The notes under the pieces are model-generated. The model did not search any database and was not told the origin of the DNA. It worked only from the letters and a program-made list of their open reading frames with translations. The position numbers were made by a program, and so were the translations under genes. Source: Candidatus Gaiellasilicea maunaloa (GTDB lineage: Bacteria > Actinomycetota > Thermoleophilia > Gaiellales > Gaiellaceae). From it: DNA of 32,295 nucleotides. The stretch is taken from NCBI GenBank assembly GCA_024330215.1, contig JANDLU010000034.1:1-32295 (forward strand). Reading direction: 5' to 3'. This document shows positions 5,109 through 21,600 of the stretch, piece after piece (within the stretch, counting starts at the first letter, position 1; every line of letters starts with the position of its first letter).

Positions 5109-6563
5109 CTAGTCGGCACCCGCGAGGGCACCGCTCGCCTCCGGGCTCTCCTCTGCGGGTGTTTCCTGCGGCGAGCGCAGCAGCAGCGCGCCGAGCGCGG
5201 CGGCCGCGGCCGCGAACAGGGCGCCCACGAGGAATGCCGCGTGATAGCCGCCGTTCAGGGCGCCGACCGAGTCGCCGCCGGCGGCGACGAGGGTGTCCGT
5301 CCGAGAGGCGGCCAGACTGGCGAGGACCGCGAGCCCGAGCGCACCGCCCATCATGAACGAGGTGTTGACGACGCCCGACGCGAGGCCGGCGTCGCTCGGC
5401 TCCACGTCGCTCATGGCGGCGAGCATGAGCGGGTTGAAGGCCATGCCGGCGCCGAGACCGAGCAGGATCATGCTCGGGAAGATGTCGACGACGAAGCTCC
5501 CGTCGACCGGAGCCCGCGCGAAGAGCACGAGCCCGGCTGCCGCCAGCAGCAGCCCGGTCGCAAGCGGCAGCCGGAAGCCGTAGCGAAGGACGAGCTTGGC
5601 CGAGAGGCCGACCGAGAGCGCACCCATGATCAGGTTGCCAGGCAGGAAGGCGAGACCGACCTGCAGCGGGCTGTAACCGAGCACGAGCTGGAGGTACAGC
5701 GCCGAGATGAAGAACCACGCGAACATCGCTCCGGCCCAGAGGATGCCGACGACGTTCGCGACCGAGACGTTGCGCAGCCGGAAGAGTCCGAGCGGCATGA
5801 GCGGCGATCGAACCCGCGCTTCGATCCCCAGGAAGACCGCCAGCAGCGCCGCCCCGGCGCCGAGCAAGCCGAGCGTCTGGACGCTCGTCCAGCCTTCCCG
5901 GTTGCCGTTGACGATCGCGTAGACGGCCAGCATCAGCGCCGCCGTGACGGTGACCGCACCGGCGACGTCGAGCCGTCCCGGCGCAGCCTCGCCGCGGGAC
6001 GACGGCACCAGTCGGAGGGTGAGCACGACGACGAGGACGCCGACCGGGACGTTGACGAGGAAGATCCAATGCCAGTTGAGCACGTCGGTCAGGATCCCGC
6101 CGAGCAGGACGCCGATCGAGCCGCCGCCCGAGGCGACGAAGCCGAAGATGCCCATCGCCTTGGCGCGGTCCATGGGTTCCGTGAACAGCGTCATCATCAG
6201 CGAGAGCGCGACTGCGGAGACGACCGCCGCGCCGATGCCCTGCAGAGCCCGCGCTCCCACGAGGAGCTCCTGCGAGCTCGCGAGACCGCAGGCGAGCGAT
6301 GCCAGCGTGAAGAGCGTGATCCCGCCGAGGAACAGACGGCGGTGTCCGAAGAGGTCGCCCAGCTTGCCGCCGAGCAGAAGGAAGCCGCCGAAGGTGAGCA
6401 GATAGGCGTTCACGACCCAGGCGAGCGACGTCTCCGAGAATCCGAGGTCCTCCCTGATCGACGGCAGCGCAACGCCGACGATCGTGACGTCGAGGACGAT
6501 CATCAAGTCCCCGAGGCAGAGGACGTACAGCGCGAGCCAGCGGGTGCGGCTGTCCATGGTCAT
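5109..6563 (-). CDS. MFS drug-resistance transporter (EmrB/QacA type)
   Basis: This 484-residue integral membrane protein has the 14-helix DHA2 layout. Near the N-terminus are LVLDVTIVGVALPSI-like residues (MIVLDVTIVGVALPSIRED) and WVVNAYLLTFGGFLLLGGKL. The motif-A loop GDLFGHRRLF and motif C-like GGSIGVLLGGILTDVLNWHWIF follow, as in QacA and EmrB relatives. These proteins export cationic drugs and other toxic compounds using proton motive force. The ATG at 6561-6563 is preferred over an upstream in-frame start because GGAGGA lies six bases before it. It appears to be the first gene of an operon with the VOC and LuxR genes. It is divergent from the STAS gene, with a 108-bp gap that should hold both promoters. 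Confidence 0.9.
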   Translation of the reverse strand: MTMDSRTRWLALYVLCLGDLMIVLDVTIVGVALPSIREDLGFSETSLAWVVNAYLLTFGGFLLLGGKLGDLFGHRRLFLGGITLFTLASLACGLASSQELLVGARALQGIGAAVVSAVALSLMMTLFTEPMDRAKAMGIFGFVASGGGSIGVLLGGILTDVLNWHWIFLVNVPVGVLVVVLTLRLVPSSRGEAAPGRLDVAGAVTVTAALMLAVYAIVNGNREGWTSVQTLGLLGAGAALLAVFLGIEARVRSPLMPLGLFRLRNVSVANVVGILWAGAMFAWFFISALYLQLVLGYSPLQVGLAFLPGNLIMGALSVGLSAKLVLRYGFRLPLATGLLLAAAGLVLFARAPVDGSFVVDIFPSMILLGLGAGMAFNPLMLAAMSDVEPSDAGLASGVVNTSFMMGGALGLAVLASLAASRTDTLVAAGGDSVGALNGGYHAAFLVGALFAAAAAALGALLLRSPQETPAEESPEASGALAGAD

Positions 6564-6671
6564 CTCATTTCCTCCCCAGTCGCATGTTCGAGGAGTCAGA
6601 CCGGGCCGCGCAGCAGAACTCATCGGTCGAGCGCCGATGAGTCTCGCCCGGCCGGGCAGTCTCTATCCGCG

Positions 6672-14083: not shown

Positions 14084-14226
14084 GAGCGCACTCTAGATGC
14101 TCGCTGAGGTGGCTATCGCGTCTCGTCCGCGGCCCATGCTCCTCGAACTGATCGAAGAGCGGCTGATCGGCGTCGCCGAGCTCCAGCCCGACGCGCCAGC
14201 AGTCAGCCCCGCCCGCAACGACTCGA

Positions 14227-14313
14227 CTACGCGGGTTCGCCGCGGGCGTCCCGAATCGCGTCGATCAACTGCCCGGTCGTGCAGAGGATGAGGCTGCGCT
14301 TGTCTCCGATGCC
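14227..14313 (-). pseudogene. PIN-toxin C-terminal fragment
   Basis: The minus frame over these bases reads DKRSLILCTTGQLIDAIRD followed by ARGEPA and a TAG, nearly the same as the C-terminus of the PIN protein at 20746-21180. The DNA at 14231-14292 matches 20750-20811 at 55 of 62 positions. A TGA lies immediately upstream in frame, so no start and no catalytic residues remain. It is a broken copy left by recombination or decay. Confidence 0.75.
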
Positions 14314-14857: not shown

Positions 14858-15454
14858 TCAGCTTCGTGCAAATGCGAGGAGCGACGCAATTTCCCCGCCG
14901 TCGGCGGCCTGCAGGGCTTCGATGTACATCCGCCGGGCTGCGGTGGCGTCTTTGGCGGCGAGCGACACACCCCACGTGAATCGCTCGCCGCCCAGCACCT
15001 CGACCAGCAGATCGGCACCGGTGCGCGCGAGGCGACCGTTGCCATTGGGGAATGGATGAATCGCGACGAGGCGATGATGGAACCGGACGGCGAGCTCGTC
15101 GGGTTCGTAGACCTCGTTCTCGACCCAGTAGAGAGTGTTTCCAAGCAGCTGCCCGATCTCCTCGGCGATCCGCCAGTAGTCGACGCCGATGTTCTTGTTG
15201 CTCGTTCGATAGCTTCCCGCCCATCGCCAGACCTCGCCGAACATCCGGCGGTGCAAATGCCTGATGAAGCTCTCGGCTATGAGTTCTGGAAGGCGGACCC
15301 TCCGCCCCCGCGTCCAGGACTCGGCACGAAGGATGTTCTCCTGTTCGGCGCGATCGAGGTCACCGCGGGTCGACAGCCAGGACGGGATGAGCCCCTCTGC
15401 CTCGTCGGGATCGAGCGGGGTTTGGCCCGCGCCGCCGCCGACCAGGAAGTGCAT
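14858..15454 (-). CDS. Fic-domain protein of the 'mobile mystery protein B' type
   Basis: This 198-residue protein carries the complete Fic catalytic motif HPFPNGNGRLAR (about residues 133-144), with the histidine required for AMP transfer. Upstream family segments are AEQENILRAESW, LHRRMFGEVWRWAG and TSNKNIGVDYW. This combination matches the family annotated as mobile mystery protein B, which travels with a helix-turn-helix partner on mobile elements. Fic proteins usually transfer AMP to a target protein; many are toxins. The typical inhibitory [ST]xxxE[GN] helix is not evident, so control may come from the partner. The partner's stop precedes this start by 3 bases. The gene appears intact. 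Confidence 0.9.
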   Translation of the reverse strand: MHFLVGGGAGQTPLDPDEAEGLIPSWLSTRGDLDRAEQENILRAESWTRGRRVRLPELIAESFIRHLHRRMFGEVWRWAGSYRTSNKNIGVDYWRIAEEIGQLLGNTLYWVENEVYEPDELAVRFHHRLVAIHPFPNGNGRLARTGADLLVEVLGGERFTWGVSLAAKDATAARRMYIEALQAADGGEIASLLAFARS

Positions 15455-15457
15455 TGC

Positions 15458-15907
15458 CTAGGCGCGCCAGAGGCGGCGGGAGTTCTTCAACTCTTCCGCG
15501 AGTTCGTCGACGAGACGCTCCTTGTCGAGGGAGTCGTCGACGAGTTGATCCTCGAGTAGCATCGTGTGCCGCACTCTCTCTGTCTCCTTCAAGGCGACGT
15601 CATGTGCGCGACGGTCGACGATCTCCTCCAATGAGTCGTTCGGCACCAGGGCATAGGCGAGGGTGCAATCGAGGGCCTCGGCAGCGCGACGCAGGCTCTC
15701 GAGCCGAATCGATCCGTCGGCTTCGGACCTCTCCAGTTGCGCGACCGCTTGGCGCGTCGTGCCAAGCCGGCCAGCCAGATCAGCCGATGACATGCCGAGC
15801 GACTCACGGATCGCCCGGATCCACCCGCGCACCGGCGCTGGCGCGAAAGAGCGCCAGCCGGCCAACCGTTCATCGAGGGCCTGGCGGGCTAGGGTCGTAG
15901 TCTTCAT
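15458..15907 (-). CDS. Xre-type HTH regulator of the 'mobile mystery protein A' type
   Basis: This 149-residue protein opens MKTTTLARQALDERL, followed by the HTH core IRESLGMSSADLAGRLGTTR and AVAQLERSEADGSIRLESLR. The middle LEALDCTLAYALVPNDSLEE-type segment (here AEALDCTLAYALVPNDSLEE) and the end ELAEELKNSRRLWRA fit the mobile mystery A family. Family A is the DNA-binding partner of the Fic-type B protein; autorepression is the natural role but is inferred. The ATG at 15907 is used; an in-frame GTG lies at 15919. Directly upstream are four evenly spaced palindromes, likely its own operators. Its stop and the Fic start are 3 bases apart. Confidence 0.88.
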   Translation of the reverse strand: MKTTTLARQALDERLAGWRSFAPAPVRGWIRAIRESLGMSSADLAGRLGTTRQAVAQLERSEADGSIRLESLRRAAEALDCTLAYALVPNDSLEEIVDRRAHDVALKETERVRHTMLLEDQLVDDSLDKERLVDELAEELKNSRRLWRA

Positions 15908-15939
15908 AGTCTTGAGCACGTTGGCAACAGTAGCAAAAT

Positions 15940-16079: not shown

Positions 16080-16520
16080 CGGGTCCGGCGCGGCCTCTAC
16101 CGTCCACGCCACTTCCCTTCGACTCCACACGAGCACGTCGTTGCGACCTGGCTGGCGCTGGCGAACGTGCCGGCGGTCGTCTCGCACGAGAGCGCGCTCG
16201 AACTCTACGACCTCTCTGACGTGATCCCGAACGCGGTTCACGTCACGCTCCCGCGCGACAAGCGCGGCCAACGCCCCCGCTCCGGTGTTCGGTTCCATAC
16301 GCTCCAGCACCCTCCCCGCGCGACCGAGATCCGCCGCGTCGCCGGCGTGCTCGCGACAAGCCCCGAGCGCACCATCGTCGACTCCCTCGAAGCCGGCACC
16401 CAGCCGGAGCAGATCGAGCTCGCCGTCCAGCAGGCGCTCGAGCGAGGCCTCACGACACCCCGCCGCCTTCGCACTGCTGCGGCCGGTCGTCCTGAGCGCG
16501 TCCGAACCTTTATCGATTGA
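16080..16520 (+). pseudogene. AbiEi-type antitoxin, 5' truncated
   Basis: The plus frame reads RGLYRPRHFPSTPHEHVV, VPAVVSHESALELYDLSDVI, then PERTIVDSLEAGTQPEQIEL and ends PERVRTFID at TGA 16518-16520. This matches the C-terminal part of AbiEi antitoxins (type IV toxin-antitoxin). The frame runs into a TAA at 16077-16079, so the N-terminal winged-helix domain of roughly 60-70 residues is missing. A GTG at 16167 could allow a 117-residue product, but without the DNA-binding domain. The break lies about 20 bp from the last palindrome of the adjacent array. It is followed without a gap by the AbiEii-like frame. Confidence 0.75.
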
Positions 16521-16897
16521 CTCCTCCGGCAAAGCGCGGCATGAGATACCGCGACGCTGCTGCCTTCCGCCAAGCGCTCGAGCAGCGACTCAAGGCCCGC
16601 GCAGCGGGAGACGGCGCACGCATCGCTCGCGACCGTAAGCGGGTCGCGTACGACCGACTCCTTGCCCGCTTGAACGCCGCCGCGCCCGACCGCTGGCTGC
16701 TCAAAGGCGGCTTTGCCCTCGACCTCAGACTCCACGAGAGAGCTCGCGCGACGCGGGACGTCGACGTCGAGTGGCAGGCAGCCGAGGAAGAACTGCTCGA
16801 CGTTCTCATCGACGCAACGTCCATAGACGTCGGCGACTACTTCGCGATCCAGGTCGAGCGCACGACTGTTCCACCTGATCGGGGTCGCCGCGTCTGA
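16517..16897 (+). pseudogene. AbiEii-type nucleotidyltransferase toxin, 3' truncated
   Basis: This frame of 126 residues (TTG at 16517 overlapping the AbiEi TGA, or ATG at 16541) shows the AbiEii/AbiGii nucleotidyltransferase core: LLKGGFALDLRL at about 61-72 and RATRDVDVEW at 78-86, supplying the paired catalytic aspartates. Family members are usually close to 300 residues. Here the frame ends after DYFAIQVERT at a TGA and runs straight into a terminator-like hairpin, so more than half of the protein is lost. Together with the truncated AbiEi gene this is a dead AbiE module, most likely inactive. Confidence 0.75.
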
Positions 16898-16907
16898 CTA
16901 GAAACAA

Positions 16908-16929
16908 AAGGCCCGCGTTTGCGGGCCTT
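16908..16929 (-). terminator. Terminator of the tRNA-like fragment
   Basis: AAGGCCCGC at 16908-16916 and GCGGGCCTT at 16921-16929 form a perfect 9-bp stem with the 4-base loop GTTT. On the minus strand the stem is followed by TTGTTT, the pattern of a rho-independent terminator. It sits directly downstream of the tRNA 3'-like fragment read on the minus strand, so it looks like the original terminator of a tRNA transcript. On the plus strand the U-tract is poor. Confidence 0.75.
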
Positions 16930-16932
16930 GCT

Positions 16933-16957
16933 CGGTGGTGGGGGCGGGTTTTGAACC
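16933..16957 (-). pseudogene. tRNA 3'-end fragment
   Basis: Read on the minus strand this stretch gives GAGGGTTCAAAACCCGC followed by CCCCACCACC, resembling the T-arm (stem, TTCAAAA loop) and 3' acceptor strand of a tRNA. One T-stem pair is mismatched. No matching D-arm, anticodon arm or 5' acceptor is visible upstream, so only a 3' fragment is left. It is directly followed by a terminator hairpin. It has the same orientation as tRNA-fMet at 21527-21600. Confidence 0.5.
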
Positions 16958-17107
16958 CTCTACCCTGACGCTTCGGGCGAGCAGCTATCGCATCGGGGAG
17001 ACGCGGGATCTCGCTTGAGACATCGTCTGGATGGCTATCGGCCTTGACACCATGCCCGCCGTTACGGTCCGCGATGATTTTCGGCCCCAAGGGCGGTCTC
17101 TAAAGAC

Positions 17108-17707
17108 ATGAGCGCAAACGAAAAATCCAAGTCAGTCCTCTACATGTCGATGTCGCTCGACGGGTTCATCGCGGGCCCGGACGACGACGCAGACCATGGC
17201 CTCGGTGTCGACGGCGAATGCCTTCACGACTGGCTGGGGCCGTGGACCGGCAAGTCGGCTGGGTTCGACCCGCCGGGCGCGAGCGCGAAGGTGTTCGAGG
17301 AGTCGATGGCGACCGGTGCCGTGGTCGTCGGCAGGCGCACGTTCGACCTCGCCGGCCGCTGGGGAGGCGATCACCACGGGGTCCCAATCTTCATTCCAAC
17401 GACCGGGACGCCACCTCCCCCAGAGTCGGACTGGGTCAACTACGTGACCGACGGCGTCGAGAGCGCGATGCGCCAGGCCAAGGACGCGGCGGGTGAGTCG
17501 AACGTGATGGTGCATGGCGCCAGCCTCGCGCAATCACTGCTGCGTGCCGGCGTGCTCGACGAGCTGGAGATCCACCTCGTCCCGGTCCTGCTGGGCGAGG
17601 GGCGTCGCCTCTTCGAGCACCTCGGCGCGGACCACACCGACCTCGAGCTCACCCGCGTCCTCGAGGCACCTGGCGTCGTCCACCTGCACTACCGGGTGAC
17701 GTCATGA
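17108..17707 (+). CDS. Dihydrofolate-reductase-like (RibD C-terminal) protein, copy 1
   Basis: This 199-residue protein starts MSANEKSKSVLYMSMSLDGF with IAGPDDD, the opening strand and active-site loop of the RibD-C/DHFR-like family. It continues VVVGRRTFDLAGRWGGD and ends with VPVLLGEGRRLFEHLG. Proteins of this group bind NADPH and reduce unidentified pterin- or pyrimidine-like substrates; they are not true folate reductases. The stop overlaps the start of the second copy (ATGA at 17704-17707), so both are translated together. It lies inside the candidate mobile island. Confidence 0.85.
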   Translation: MSANEKSKSVLYMSMSLDGFIAGPDDDADHGLGVDGECLHDWLGPWTGKSAGFDPPGASAKVFEESMATGAVVVGRRTFDLAGRWGGDHHGVPIFIPTTGTPPPPESDWVNYVTDGVESAMRQAKDAAGESNVMVHGASLAQSLLRAGVLDELEIHLVPVLLGEGRRLFEHLGADHTDLELTRVLEAPGVVHLHYRVTS

Positions 17708-18291
17708 GCGCTGAAAGGCAACGACGGCTGATCCTCCACATGTCGGTGTCGCTCGACGGCTTTGTCACCGGCGTCGACGGCAAGGTCGACTGGCTGGCCC
17801 CGGAGGACGCCGTCGACCACGGTGATCAACGCCACCGGCTGAACCTCGAGATGCTCAGTCAGCTCGACGTGATCCTGCTCGGGCGAGTGGCCTACGAGGA
17901 AATGGGGCCTGCCTGGGCGAGCTCCGACAGCCCAATGGCCCAGCTCATGAACGCGCTTCCCAAGGTCGTCTTCTCAGAGAGCCTCACTGAGCTCGACTGG
18001 AACAACGCGCGTCTCAACGAGCTCCCCCTGGGAGAGGAGATTGAGCAGCTCAAGCGCGAGCCCGGCCGCGACATCGTTGCCTTCGGCGGCGGCCACTTCG
18101 CGCACAGCCTGATCCGCGAGCGGCTGGTCGACGAATATCGGCTCACCGTGCACCCGGTCGCGCTCGGCTCCGGCATCTCGCTCATGCACGGGCTCCTGGA
18201 GCCGCAGCGTTTCGAGCTCGTCAGCAGCACGGCCTACACCGATGGCTGCGTGATGCAGGTACTCCGACCGGATCGTGGTGAGCCGCAATGA
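17704..18291 (+). CDS. Dihydrofolate-reductase-like (RibD C-terminal) protein, copy 2
   Basis: This 195-residue protein belongs to the same RibD-C/DHFR-like family as its upstream neighbour. It shows LILHMSVSLDGFVTGVDGKV at the start, VILLGRVAYEEMGPAW in the centre and AFGGGHFAHSLIRERLVDEY near the C-terminus. The two copies have diverged strongly, so the duplication is old or they belong to different subfamilies. Its TGA overlaps the ATG of a short SnoaL-like stub (ATGA at 18288-18291), suggesting a three-gene operon whose third gene was destroyed by the integrase insertion. The substrate is unknown. Confidence 0.85.
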   Translation: MSAERQRRLILHMSVSLDGFVTGVDGKVDWLAPEDAVDHGDQRHRLNLEMLSQLDVILLGRVAYEEMGPAWASSDSPMAQLMNALPKVVFSESLTELDWNNARLNELPLGEEIEQLKREPGRDIVAFGGGHFAHSLIRERLVDEYRLTVHPVALGSGISLMHGLLEPQRFELVSSTAYTDGCVMQVLRPDRGEPQ

Positions 18292-18361
18292 CCGATGAGG
18301 AGCTTCGCGACGCCGCTCGGAAGATCTGGAGCCAGTTCAACGCCCACGATCTCGACCTCGC
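18288..18361 (+). pseudogene. 5' stub of a SnoaL/NTF2-like gene
   Basis: The frame opens MTDEELRDAARKIWSQFNAH, then DLDLAG, after which the reading frame becomes noise. The opening resembles SnoaL/NTF2-like proteins, in which a helix with FNAHDLD precedes the pocket. The text switches to integrase sequence (RLAAVEDGYRKPARV in another frame) at about 18360. It looks like a gene cut after 25 codons by a rearrangement. It is coupled by ATGA overlap to the DHFR-like gene. Confidence 0.5.
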
Positions 18362-19383
18362 TGGCGCCTCGCCGCCGTCGAAGACGGCTACCGCAAGCCC
18401 GCGCGGGTGGCCTTCGGTGAGTTCGCCGAGCGCTTCGTGCGCGACTACCTCCCGTCGCGGAACCTCAAGCCCACGACGACCGAGAACTACCGCTACCTCC
18501 TCGGCCGCCACCTGCTCCCCTTCGCAGATGCGCCGCTGGCCGAGCTCGAGGCGCGGCCGGAACTGCTCGACGCGTACATCGCGCTCAAGTCGGATGCCGG
18601 CCTGTCGCCGAAGACGATTCAGAATCATCTGCTTCTGCTGAACGTCATGTTCCGTCGCGCGATCGTCTGGCGCCTGATCCGGACGAATCCGGTCGCGAGC
18701 ATCGATCGGCCGCGGATGGAGCAACCGGAGATGAGCGTCCTCTCCGAGGCCGAGATCGCGAGGCTGAGCGTCGCCTACGAAGAGCTGGTCGGCGAGGCCG
18801 CTGAGGGCGAGCGCGCGTGGTGGCTGCTCGCCAAAGCGATCGTCGTGACTGCCCTCGGTACGGCGCTCCGGCGCGGCGAGCTGATCGGGTTGCGCTGGCG
18901 TTCCGTCAACCTGCTCGACGGCAAGATCGAGGTTCGGGAGGCGTTCGTGCGCGGACAGTCACGACGCCGAAGAGCAGAGCGTCGCGGCGCGTCGTCGAGC
19001 TCGGCCCGCGCACGCTGGGCGTCCTCGACGAGCAGTGGCGCCGGGCCGCGTATCGGAGCGACGATGACCTCGTCTTCGGCCACCCGACGAAGGGAACGCC
19101 GGTCGACACGAGCAAGCTCGCGAAGCGCTAACTGAAGCCGGCGCTCGCACGCGCCGGGATCGAGAAGCCGTTCCGCCCCTTTCACGATCTCCGCCATACC
19201 TCGCTCACGCACGCCGCCGCGGCTGGCAACCCGCAGATCTACGTCCAAGCGCGCGCCGGCCACTCGCAGGGCTCGATCACCGAGCGGTACATCCACGCCG
19301 CCCAGGTTCTGTTTCAGGGCGCCGCCGAACGGAGTGAGGAGCGGATGTTCGGTCGGCGCGAACGCGCGGACGGCGTCGAATAG
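18359..19383 (+). pseudogene. Tyrosine recombinase/integrase, truncated and frameshifted
   Basis: The frame from 18359 reads RLAAVEDGYRKPARVAFGEF and then an N-terminal SAM-like core-binding domain (PTTTENYRYLLGRHLLPF). The catalytic domain has TALGTALRRGELIGLRW (first Arg), HDLRHTSLTHAAAAG (His-x-x-Arg-His) and AGHSQGSITERYIHA (Gly-His and Tyr). A one-base loss near 18954 shifts the frame, and an in-frame TAA interrupts it at 19129-19131 (LAKR, stop, LKPALARAG). The first residues of the protein are missing, replaced by the SnoaL-like stub. All catalytic residues survive, so the loss is recent on an evolutionary scale. It was probably the integrase of the surrounding island. Confidence 0.85.
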
Positions 19384-19471
19384 CGGCCGACCGGTTGGTT
19401 CCGACAGACTTCACGTCGGCGTGTCAGACGGGGATGTCCATCCGCTGCTCGTGGCGGCTTAGGCTTCTCCG

Positions 19472-20690
19472 GTGGAGACCGCCGAAGCCCACCCGGAACC
19501 TGTAGCACCGCCTGAGAAGCGTTGGCTGACGCCGGGCGTGCGAGCGATCGGCGGCGCAAGCCTGCTCGCCGACCTCGGGCACGAGGTGCCAACCTCGCTG
19601 TTCCGAGCTTTCTCACCTCGACGCTCGGCGCGCCGGCGGCGGCTCTTGGTTTGATCGAGGGGGTCGCTGACGGACTCGCGGGCGCTGCCCGCTTTGGCGG
19701 CGGCGCGCTTGCCGATGATCCTGAACGCCGCCGCCGCGTTGCCGTCGGCGGCTACACGGCGACGGCCGTGTTCTCGCCGCGATCGGCGCTGCGACCTCGG
19801 TGTGGCAGGTCGGCGCGCTCCGGGCGGGAGCGTGGATGGCGCGCGGGCTGAGGGTACCGGCGCGCAACGCGCTGCTCGCGGACGTCGTTCCGTCGAGCGC
19901 GTACGGGCGGGCGTACGGATTCGAGCGGGCGATGGACAACCTGGGCGCGATCGGCGGACCGCTGCTCGCACTCGCCCTGGTCGCCATCGTCGGCGTCCGC
20001 ACCGCGATCCTCCTCAGCGTCATCCCCGGCCTGCTCGCCGCGTTCGCGATCGTCTACGCGATCCGCGCTGCGCCGAAGCTCGAGCCGCGCCCGCGCCAGC
20101 CGATCCGTCTGCGCGTCCGGCCGGTGCTGCACGGCCGACTCGGACAGCTGCTCTTCGGCGTCTCCGCGTTCGAGGTCGGCAACATCGCCGCGACGCTCCT
20201 GATCCTCCGCGCAAGCGAACTCCTCACTCCCGCGCACGGCGAAGACACGGCTGCGAAGATCGCGATCGGCCTCTACGCCGGCTACAACCTCGCCGCCACG
20301 CTTGCAAGCGTCGCCGGCGGACGACTCGGAGACCGCCGCGGCGCCGTCCTTGTCCTCGCGCTCGGCGTCGCCTGCTTCGGCGTCGCCTACGCCGGCCTGG
20401 CCTTCGTCGGCGCGAGCATTCTCGCGCTCGCGTTGTTCTTCGTCGCCGCCGGAATTGCGATCGGCTTCGTCGAGACCGCCGAGCACGCGGCCGTCGCCTC
20501 GCTCGCCCCAGCAGACCTCCGCGGCTCTGCCTTCGGCCTGCTCGCAGCCGTGCAGAGCTTCGGCAACCTCGCGGCAAGCGCCGTCGCCGGCCTGCTCTGG
20601 ACGACCGTCTCCCCGCGAGCAGCGTTCCTCTACCTCGCCGGCTGGATGGCGCTCGCCCTCATCGCGCTTGCCCGCCCCGCCAGGCAGTGA
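19472..20690 (+). pseudogene. MFS transporter with two frameshifts
   Basis: The protein starts METAEAHPEPVAPPEKRW (GTG) and reads VRAIGGASLLADLGHEVPTS. At about 19601 it needs a shift to continue PSFLTSTLGAPAAALGLIEG, and again near 19772 to enter IGAATSVWQVGALRAGAW. From there it is intact to 20690. The 12-helix DHA1-type pattern is clear, including a motif-A-like ARFGGGALADD. Each break is explained by one missing base. The long intact 3' part suggests a recently lost gene, or two local sequencing errors, which cannot be separated here. Confidence 0.8.
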
Positions 20691-20745
20691 CCGCTCCTAC
20701 CGCTCGCACGTTTCGGCGACAAGCACGGCGAAGAGCGCTTGACGA

Positions 20746-21180
20746 CTAAGCTGGTTCGCCGCCGGCGTCCCGGATCGCGTCGAGCAACTGGCCGGTCGTG
20801 AAGAGGGTGAGGCCCGCTGCCTCCAGGTCCTTGTCCTGCGACCAGATCGGGAGCGCGCGGGCGAGGGCAAGGGCGACGGTCGGCCAGTCCTCGGGGTCGC
20901 GGCCGGCCATGCGGCGCTCGGACTCCCGACGCTCGGGCTCATAGACGGCCGGAGGCTGCCAGTCGACCGGCATGACGCTCAGGGCTGCGAGGAGGAGACC
21001 GGCGTCGAGGCCACGTCGCCCGGCCAGCGCGGGCAGATGCTCGGCGACCTCCTCGGCCACCGCCTGGGCGGCGAGACACGTCGGACCGGCGGGTGAGGCG
21101 AAAACGATGCGGGCGCGCCCGCCGATCAGCGCCGAGAGGATGACGTTCGCGTCAGCGACGACGGCGGGCGGCAGCGAAAT
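20746..21180 (-). CDS. PIN-domain ribonuclease toxin (VapC-like)
   Basis: This frame of 144 residues has the PIN pattern: AVVADANVILSALIGG supplies the first aspartate (about residue 10), QAVAEEVAEHL the glutamate (43/44), DPEDWPTVALAL and WSQDKDLEAAG the remaining aspartates. All four acidic positions are present, so it looks catalytically competent as an Mg-dependent RNase. No ATG, GTG or TTG lies between the upstream in-frame TGA and the domain. The best candidate start is ATT at 21178-21180, with GAGGAGG nine bases before it (an ATG changed to ATT?); CTG two codons later is another option. It overlaps the antitoxin 3' end by 29 bases. Confidence 0.75.
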   Translation of the reverse strand: MSLPPAVVADANVILSALIGGRARIVFASPAGPTCLAAQAVAEEVAEHLPALAGRRGLDAGLLLAALSVMPVDWQPPAVYEPERRESERRMAGRDPEDWPTVALALARALPIWSQDKDLEAAGLTLFTTGQLLDAIRDAGGEPA

Positions 21181-21406
21181 CGCTGAGAACCTCCTCCTCG
21201 GTCACCCCTCGAGCCTCACGCTGTGCCGCGATCTGCTCCGTGAGGCGCAGAAACACCTCGCGTCGCACATCGGCAGGGAGCTCAGGGGCGTCCCAGGGCA
21301 GGAAGAACCCAGCGGGCCGGCCCTCACGGGTCACGAGAATGACGTCGTCGGAGCGAAACATCTCGCTCGCCCGATCGCGAAAGTCCCGCACGGTCACAAC
21401 TCTCAT
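21152..21406 (-). CDS. Phd/YefM-type antitoxin
   Basis: This 84-residue protein reads MRVVTVRDFRDRASEMFRSD, the N-terminal DNA-binding and dimerisation part of Phd-type antitoxins. VILVTREGRPAGFFLPWD follows, then a charged C-terminal tail (EVLSDFAAARRRR) that would bind the toxin. It lies upstream of, and overlapping, the PIN frame, in the standard antitoxin-toxin order. The ATG at 21404-21406 is used because the family starts here; longer frames upstream are arginine-rich noise. A 20-bp imperfect palindrome sits directly upstream and may be the autoregulatory operator. Confidence 0.8.
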   Translation of the reverse strand: MRVVTVRDFRDRASEMFRSDDVILVTREGRPAGFFLPWDAPELPADVRREVFLRLTEQIAAQREARGVTEEEVLSDFAAARRRR

Positions 21407-21426
21407 GTGATCACCATGGTGGCCAC
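21407..21426. promoter_or_regulatory. Imperfect palindrome upstream of the antitoxin
   Basis: GTGATCACCATGGTGGCCAC matches its own reverse complement at 16 of 20 positions and abuts the antitoxin start codon. Phd-type proteins usually repress their own promoter by binding such dyads, so this is a candidate operator; direct evidence is lacking. Confidence 0.45.
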
Positions 21427-21526
21427 ACTCTAGCACCGCGGAGTCAAACGGTCGACGCCTGGGTCTGCGCAAGACGTTTACCACGGAGCGAACAGAGGAG
21501 AGCGAAATCGTGCGGGCCTTTTGTAG

Positions 21527-21600
21527 TAGCGGGGGCAGGATTTGAACCTGCGACCTCCGGGTTATGAGCCCGGCGAGCTACCTGACTGCTCCACCCCGCG
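21527..21600 (-). tRNA. tRNA-fMet (CAT anticodon)
   Basis: The 74-base sequence folds as a full cloverleaf with 5' acceptor CGCGGGG, 3' acceptor CCCCGCT and discriminator A, and a D-arm from GAGC to GCTC. The anticodon arm is CCGGG-CTCATAA-CCCGG and the T-arm GCAGGTTCAAATCCTGC. The first acceptor pair is C-T rather than Watson-Crick and the anticodon stem has three GC pairs next to the loop, both initiator features. CCA is not encoded. Downstream on the minus strand, AAAAGGCCCGCA resembles only the left half of the hairpin at 16908-16929. Confidence 0.95.

Follow-up and report, generated by a model that had tools for sequence, protein, structure and literature searches.

Integrative and mobilizable elements (IMEs) carry a tyrosine integrase and take the 3' end of tRNA genes as their target, and they are known to form composite islands in tandem, in which an internal att site is chimeric (PMC5704250). 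AICEs also target tRNA genes, including tRNA-Met in Frankia, with direct repeats at the tRNA 3' end, and tandem cases with extra att sites have been described for them (PMC3218068). For attachment sites in tRNA-fMet, our literature searches gave no direct precedent. The window analysed here is a complete contig (C128) of 32,295 bp from a draft genome of 3.85 Mb, and its tRNA-fMet gene lies at one end of a region that is very probably best explained by an element that integrated into this gene and then decayed heavily. The original prediction, in which an old element was proposed to occupy the interval between fMet and a displaced tRNA 3' end at 16.9 kb, is supported as largely right in its interpretation. 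The features on which the argument depends are as follows.

14123-14196, minus strand: C-terminal relic of HsdR (type I restriction), 84% identical at the DNA level to the G135 element
14224-14294, minus strand: 3' end of a second PIN gene, 89% identical to 20743-20813
14858-15454, minus strand: mobile mystery protein B (mmpB; Fic domain)
15458-15919, minus strand: mobile mystery protein A (mmpA; HTH)
16167-16897, plus strand: truncated AbiEi (N-terminal part missing) and AbiEii (C-terminal half missing)
16903-16964, minus strand: displaced 3' end of fMet in degenerate form (T arm, acceptor and terminator), read as a relic attachment site
17108-17707 and 17704-18291, plus strand: two RibD_C / dihydrofolate-reductase-like genes
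18350-19359, plus strand: tyrosine integrase pseudogene, with 51 N-terminal codons missing, a frameshift near 18960 and a stop at 19129-19131
19469-20690, plus strand: MFS transporter pseudogene with frameshifts in its N-terminal half
20743-21435, minus strand: genes of a PIN-domain toxin and a putative antitoxin (start codon of the latter at ~21406)
21511-21522, minus strand: fMet terminator hairpin reduced to its left half (AAAAGGCCCGCA), the right half being lost
21526/21527-21600, minus strand: intact tRNA-fMet (CAT), the presumed integration target

The tRNA gene at 21527-21600 is the only complete fMet gene that we found in its own genome. The fragment at 16.9 kb lies on the same strand and comprises a terminator with a 9-bp stem (16908-16929; AAGGCCCGC-AAAC-GCGGGCCTT, then TTGTTTCT) and a tRNA-like part (GGGTTCAAAACCCGCCCCCACCACC), whose homology to fMet begins only at the T arm; the folding z of 16898-16965 is -3.7. 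In local alignments, the fragment (16898-16967) scored 72 against the displaced fMet 3' half of a relative, G003 (ungapped over 62 bp), and 69 against an fMet 3' half on contig C51 of its own genome (with one gap), whereas the maximum among ~4000 random 95-mers of the contig was 30. BLAST gave E-values of 2e-8 for the G003 copy and 2e-7 (genome-wide) for the C51 copy; the match to the window's own fMet, 76% over 38 bp, is not significant alone. The T-arm/acceptor-like fragment with a terminator that had been noticed on the fMet strand is thus real. No tmRNA was called in the window. An intact tRNA gene and a same-strand displaced 3' copy, as expected of a tRNA-integrated island, are both present, the copy being degenerate and running from the T arm onward, and intact relatives of the integrase lie beside fMet in G003, G135, G163 and G250.

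Three of these relatives (G003, G135 and G250) carry intact elements. In G003 (contig C93, JAIBJN010000047.1), fMet and a 79-bp displaced 3' half with its terminator, 92% identical, lie 12.8 kb apart, and between them is a tyrosine-type integrase of 388 aa with conserved R, HxxR, GH and Y motifs. The same element encodes a 966-aa MobF/TrwC relaxase, two sigma factors and a PIN/antitoxin pair, the latter close to the far fMet 3' copy. In Gaiella sp. FR_16 (G135; JAOSJZ010000001.1), the displaced copy is 48 bp long, matches exactly and lies 27.7 kb away from fMet. The FR_16 integrase shares 82% identity with the G003 integrase, and the cargo of the element includes type I restriction, AbiEi/AbiEii and transposase genes. 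The displaced copy in G250 is 71 bp long and 93% identical, with an integrase between it and fMet, while in G163 the integrase and fMet lie within 3 kb and the contig stops before any far copy. The displaced halves in G003, FR_16 and G250 are thus found 13-28 kb from the complete fMet. Paired TTTRTACCC-like repeats, resembling integrase arm sites, are located ~60-75 bp past the fMet end in G003, FR_16 and G031. The two named contigs that carry the closest integrases are those of Actinomycetota bacterium CR_Sed_300A_bin.97 and Gaiella sp. FR_16, from which the lineage of the window is presumed to be Gaiella-like. More distant members of the integrase family lie near tRNA-Asn. The G003 fMet gene beside ppx (L103 9859-9933; C93 24559-24633) reads AGCCAGG on its 5' acceptor strand in place of CGCGGGG, which could reflect damage to the gene or a misassembly.

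The fragment, the integrase and the PIN pair of the window all have homologues in the G003 element, and three relatives (G003, FR_16 and G250) show the same layout, which supports the proposal that an element targeted the tRNA gene and displaced its 3' end. The tyrosine integrase remnant indeed lies between the fragment and fMet, and its parts share 76% and 87% protein identity with the G003 integrase. The PIN/antitoxin pair is 85% identical at the DNA level to the pair in the G003 element, the homology stopping ~30 bp before the start codon of the putative antitoxin; we use the label 'antitoxin' from the position of the gene and its likeness to the G003 gene, and it matched no Pfam or NCBIfam family. 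This start codon lies ~120 bp downstream of the terminator-less fMet on the same strand. Since the tRNA gene reads toward the pair with no terminator in between, there is a small chance that the pair is transcribed from the fMet promoter, in which case an essential tRNA gene would have captured a toxin-antitoxin module. The RibD_C / dihydrofolate-reductase-like genes (17108-18291) would be either cargo or later arrivals. The original prediction had named, as a case that would speak against it, DHFR and MFS genes conserved in place without the integrase; those of the interval were found beside fMet in none of the relatives examined (spans of 0.3-20 kb). Comparison with the intact elements revealed no relaxase relic in the window, and the unassigned spacers of the island gave no convincing match to the relatives.

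How far the element extends to the left needs to be considered. One element bounded exactly at 16.9 kb, with everything further left being ordinary chromosome, would account for the relic att site at that position and for the integrase relic between the att site and fMet. Nevertheless, several genes and relics lie further left: the truncated AbiE genes, of which AbiEii ends 6 bp short of the relic att site, mobile mystery proteins A and B, the 3' end of a second PIN gene and a relic of HsdR. The last two match genes of the element family, and the fall in G+C content from ~0.70 to 0.64-0.66 between ~14 and 18 kb spans the fragment. We regard the single bounded element as possible but rather unlikely. 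The island was originally drawn to end at 16.9 kb, but the scar appears to be larger, with same-family relics and mobile genes extending to ~14.1 kb. Because relics of the same element family (HsdR and PIN) continue to that point, 16.9 kb is probably not an outer edge but an internal att scar from tandem accretion. The gene order and the duplicated relics suggest that two or more elements accumulated here, a number that we infer and that is plausible in the light of published tandem cases in tRNA genes (PMC3218068, PMC5704250). An outer att copy was looked for near 14.1 kb and not found, and the only sign of synteny at the left edge was an MFS homologue in G020 (69%; window 5109-6623), ~3.8 kb downstream of fMet, which is weak alone.

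A second question is how the fMet terminator came to be cut. In 20 or more relatives of the family, fMet is followed directly by a recognisable terminator hairpin, many with perfect stems of 8-13 bp. In the window only, it is cut to the left half, which reads TGCGGGCCTTTT on the plus strand (21511-21522) and contains no perfect stem longer than 3 bp. This half hairpin had been correctly noticed and read as a product of integration; the tRNA-targeting layout stands, but that reading of the hairpin does not, since intact elements keep the full terminator at fMet. It is probably the mark of a later deletion, which would also have removed the arm sites. Alternatively, the fMet terminator might have been broken by a non-site-specific insertion that duplicated 10 bp (AAGGCCCGCA), and the fragment would resemble a tRNA only incidentally. 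AAGGCCCGCA is indeed present on both sides, and the left arm on the fMet side would form a 13-bp stem with the right arm on the fragment side. This is, however, highly improbable, as (i) the match between the fragment and fMet runs 25-30 bp past the hairpin into the acceptor and the T arm, and (ii) integration targeted to the tRNA gene, with a related integrase and longer direct repeats, is seen in intact relatives. That the fragment was displaced from some other tRNA (e.g., Gly or Ser), fMet not being the target, is barely credible: the T arm and acceptor alone match other tRNAs equally well (without the terminator, Ser and Tyr also agree at 18-19 of 24 positions) and an fMet 3'-end profile gives several other tRNA ends scores similar to that of the fragment, so that the fMet specificity comes from the terminator, but with the terminator included the 16 best scores among all tRNAs examined belong to fMet copies, and the best non-fMet tRNA of the same genome reaches 41 against 69-72. 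Other tRNAs were rejected as the source of the fragment on these terminator-inclusive scores, and no different, intact tRNA gene containing the fragment, the other counter-case raised in the original prediction, was found.

We therefore return to the decayed fMet-integrated element, for which we infer the following order of events. An element carrying a tyrosine integrase, integrative and probably mobilizable, would have entered tRNA-fMet by recombination in the 3' half of the gene. The element's own copy of that half would have rebuilt the gene, and the T arm, acceptor end and terminator that originally stood there would have been carried to the far end of the element, where the sequence at 16.9 kb may be their degenerate survivor. 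Decay would have followed: the relaxase and the arm sites were presumably lost, the integrase was truncated, frameshifted and stopped, and the MFS gene was frameshifted. A deletion starting inside the fMet terminator may then have taken out the arm region nearest to fMet, so that the PIN/antitoxin pair came to adjoin the tRNA gene. Some observations run against this explanation. The fMet homology of the fragment ends at the T arm, whereas intact displaced copies start in the anticodon stem; the integrase relic is not adjacent to fMet; and the window has its PIN pair at the fMet end, whereas in G003 the pair is at the far end.

The surroundings of fMet were compared in the relatives, the nearest of which belong to other genera apart from the incomplete genome G001. 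On the right of fMet, ppx is conserved, with a spacing of ~300-500 bp in most relatives examined and longer in a few; on the left, the gene content differs in nearly every relative, which marks a hotspot. In G019 (L077) and G048 (L088), fMet and ppx are separated by ~5-6 kb rather than 0.3-0.5 kb, and DNA may also have entered 5' of fMet in these genomes. The ppx contig of G035 ends just before the tRNA gene. In several other genera, the terminator of fMet is complete and arm repeats are absent, but these genera share no left flank with the window. In the same-genus G001, we found no match to ppx or fMet and no syntenic flank.

Other tRNA 3' halves were also seen. Contig C51 of the same genome as the window (G000; L003) starts inside another fMet 3' half (1-110) with an intact terminator, followed by GTGTCCCGGATGTGTCCCG repeats that resemble arm sites belonging to a different element. 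In the anticodon stem of this fMet 3' half, the bases (GTCGGG...CCCGAAGG) are of a type seen in other families, and the sequence may thus represent a foreign element or contamination. Beside it (L003 1714-5646), genes for an AAA/Clp-like ATPase, a radical SAM activating enzyme (Fer4_12), an FHA-like protein and a PP2C-like protein lie consecutively, the ATPase giving weak-to-moderate PADLOC matches to PDC-M37B and DolB. Contig C21 of G168 (L135) carries a degenerate fMet 3' end with a terminator and TTTGCCCGAC repeats, much like the window fragment; the fMet 3' ends on this contig (5835-5884 and 7544-7596) are 1.7 kb apart in the same orientation. On contig C132 of G000, two tRNA-Asp 3' halves with terminator-like sequence (L036 850-950 and L037 840-935) lie ~21 kb apart and have the look of another tRNA-targeting element.

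Compared with known systems, the window is closest to the G003 and FR_16 elements, with which it has in common the tRNA-fMet target and the integrase family. The PIN/antitoxin pair is common to the window and G003, and FR_16 carries AbiE and type I restriction genes as cargo. Whereas the window copy has lost the relaxase and the arm sites, the integrase is intact in the G003 and FR_16 elements, which also retain a relaxase and clear att copies. The tRNA target and the direct repeats at the tRNA 3' end resemble those of AICEs; the difference is that intact relatives of the window element carry a MobF/TrwC relaxase, which points to single-strand transfer. The tyrosine integrase and the tRNA 3' end target are also those of IMEs. 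As in IMEs, the relaxase of G003 occurs without a recognised conjugation apparatus among the genes scanned, which gave a relaxase, an integrase and sigma factors only. The combination of integrase and relaxase with no mating apparatus is found only in G003 and not in the window, and we consider the window to hold a remnant of an IME-type element, a dead copy that has no relaxase left and would no longer be functional. The tRNA-fMet gene of Gaiella-like bacteria hence joins the hotspots of mobile elements, the intact relatives carrying type I restriction, AbiE and PIN/antitoxin genes as defence cargo. The window also shows that an attachment site, though decayed, is recognisable through a T arm and its terminator. 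The principle being well known, the gain lies in mapping a hotspot within a lineage that has received little study and in improving the annotation of the contig. The event is of a known kind, with a target and a host for which the literature searched held no report; it represents ordinary tRNA-targeting mobile-element biology, at an advanced stage of decay, in a little-studied host.
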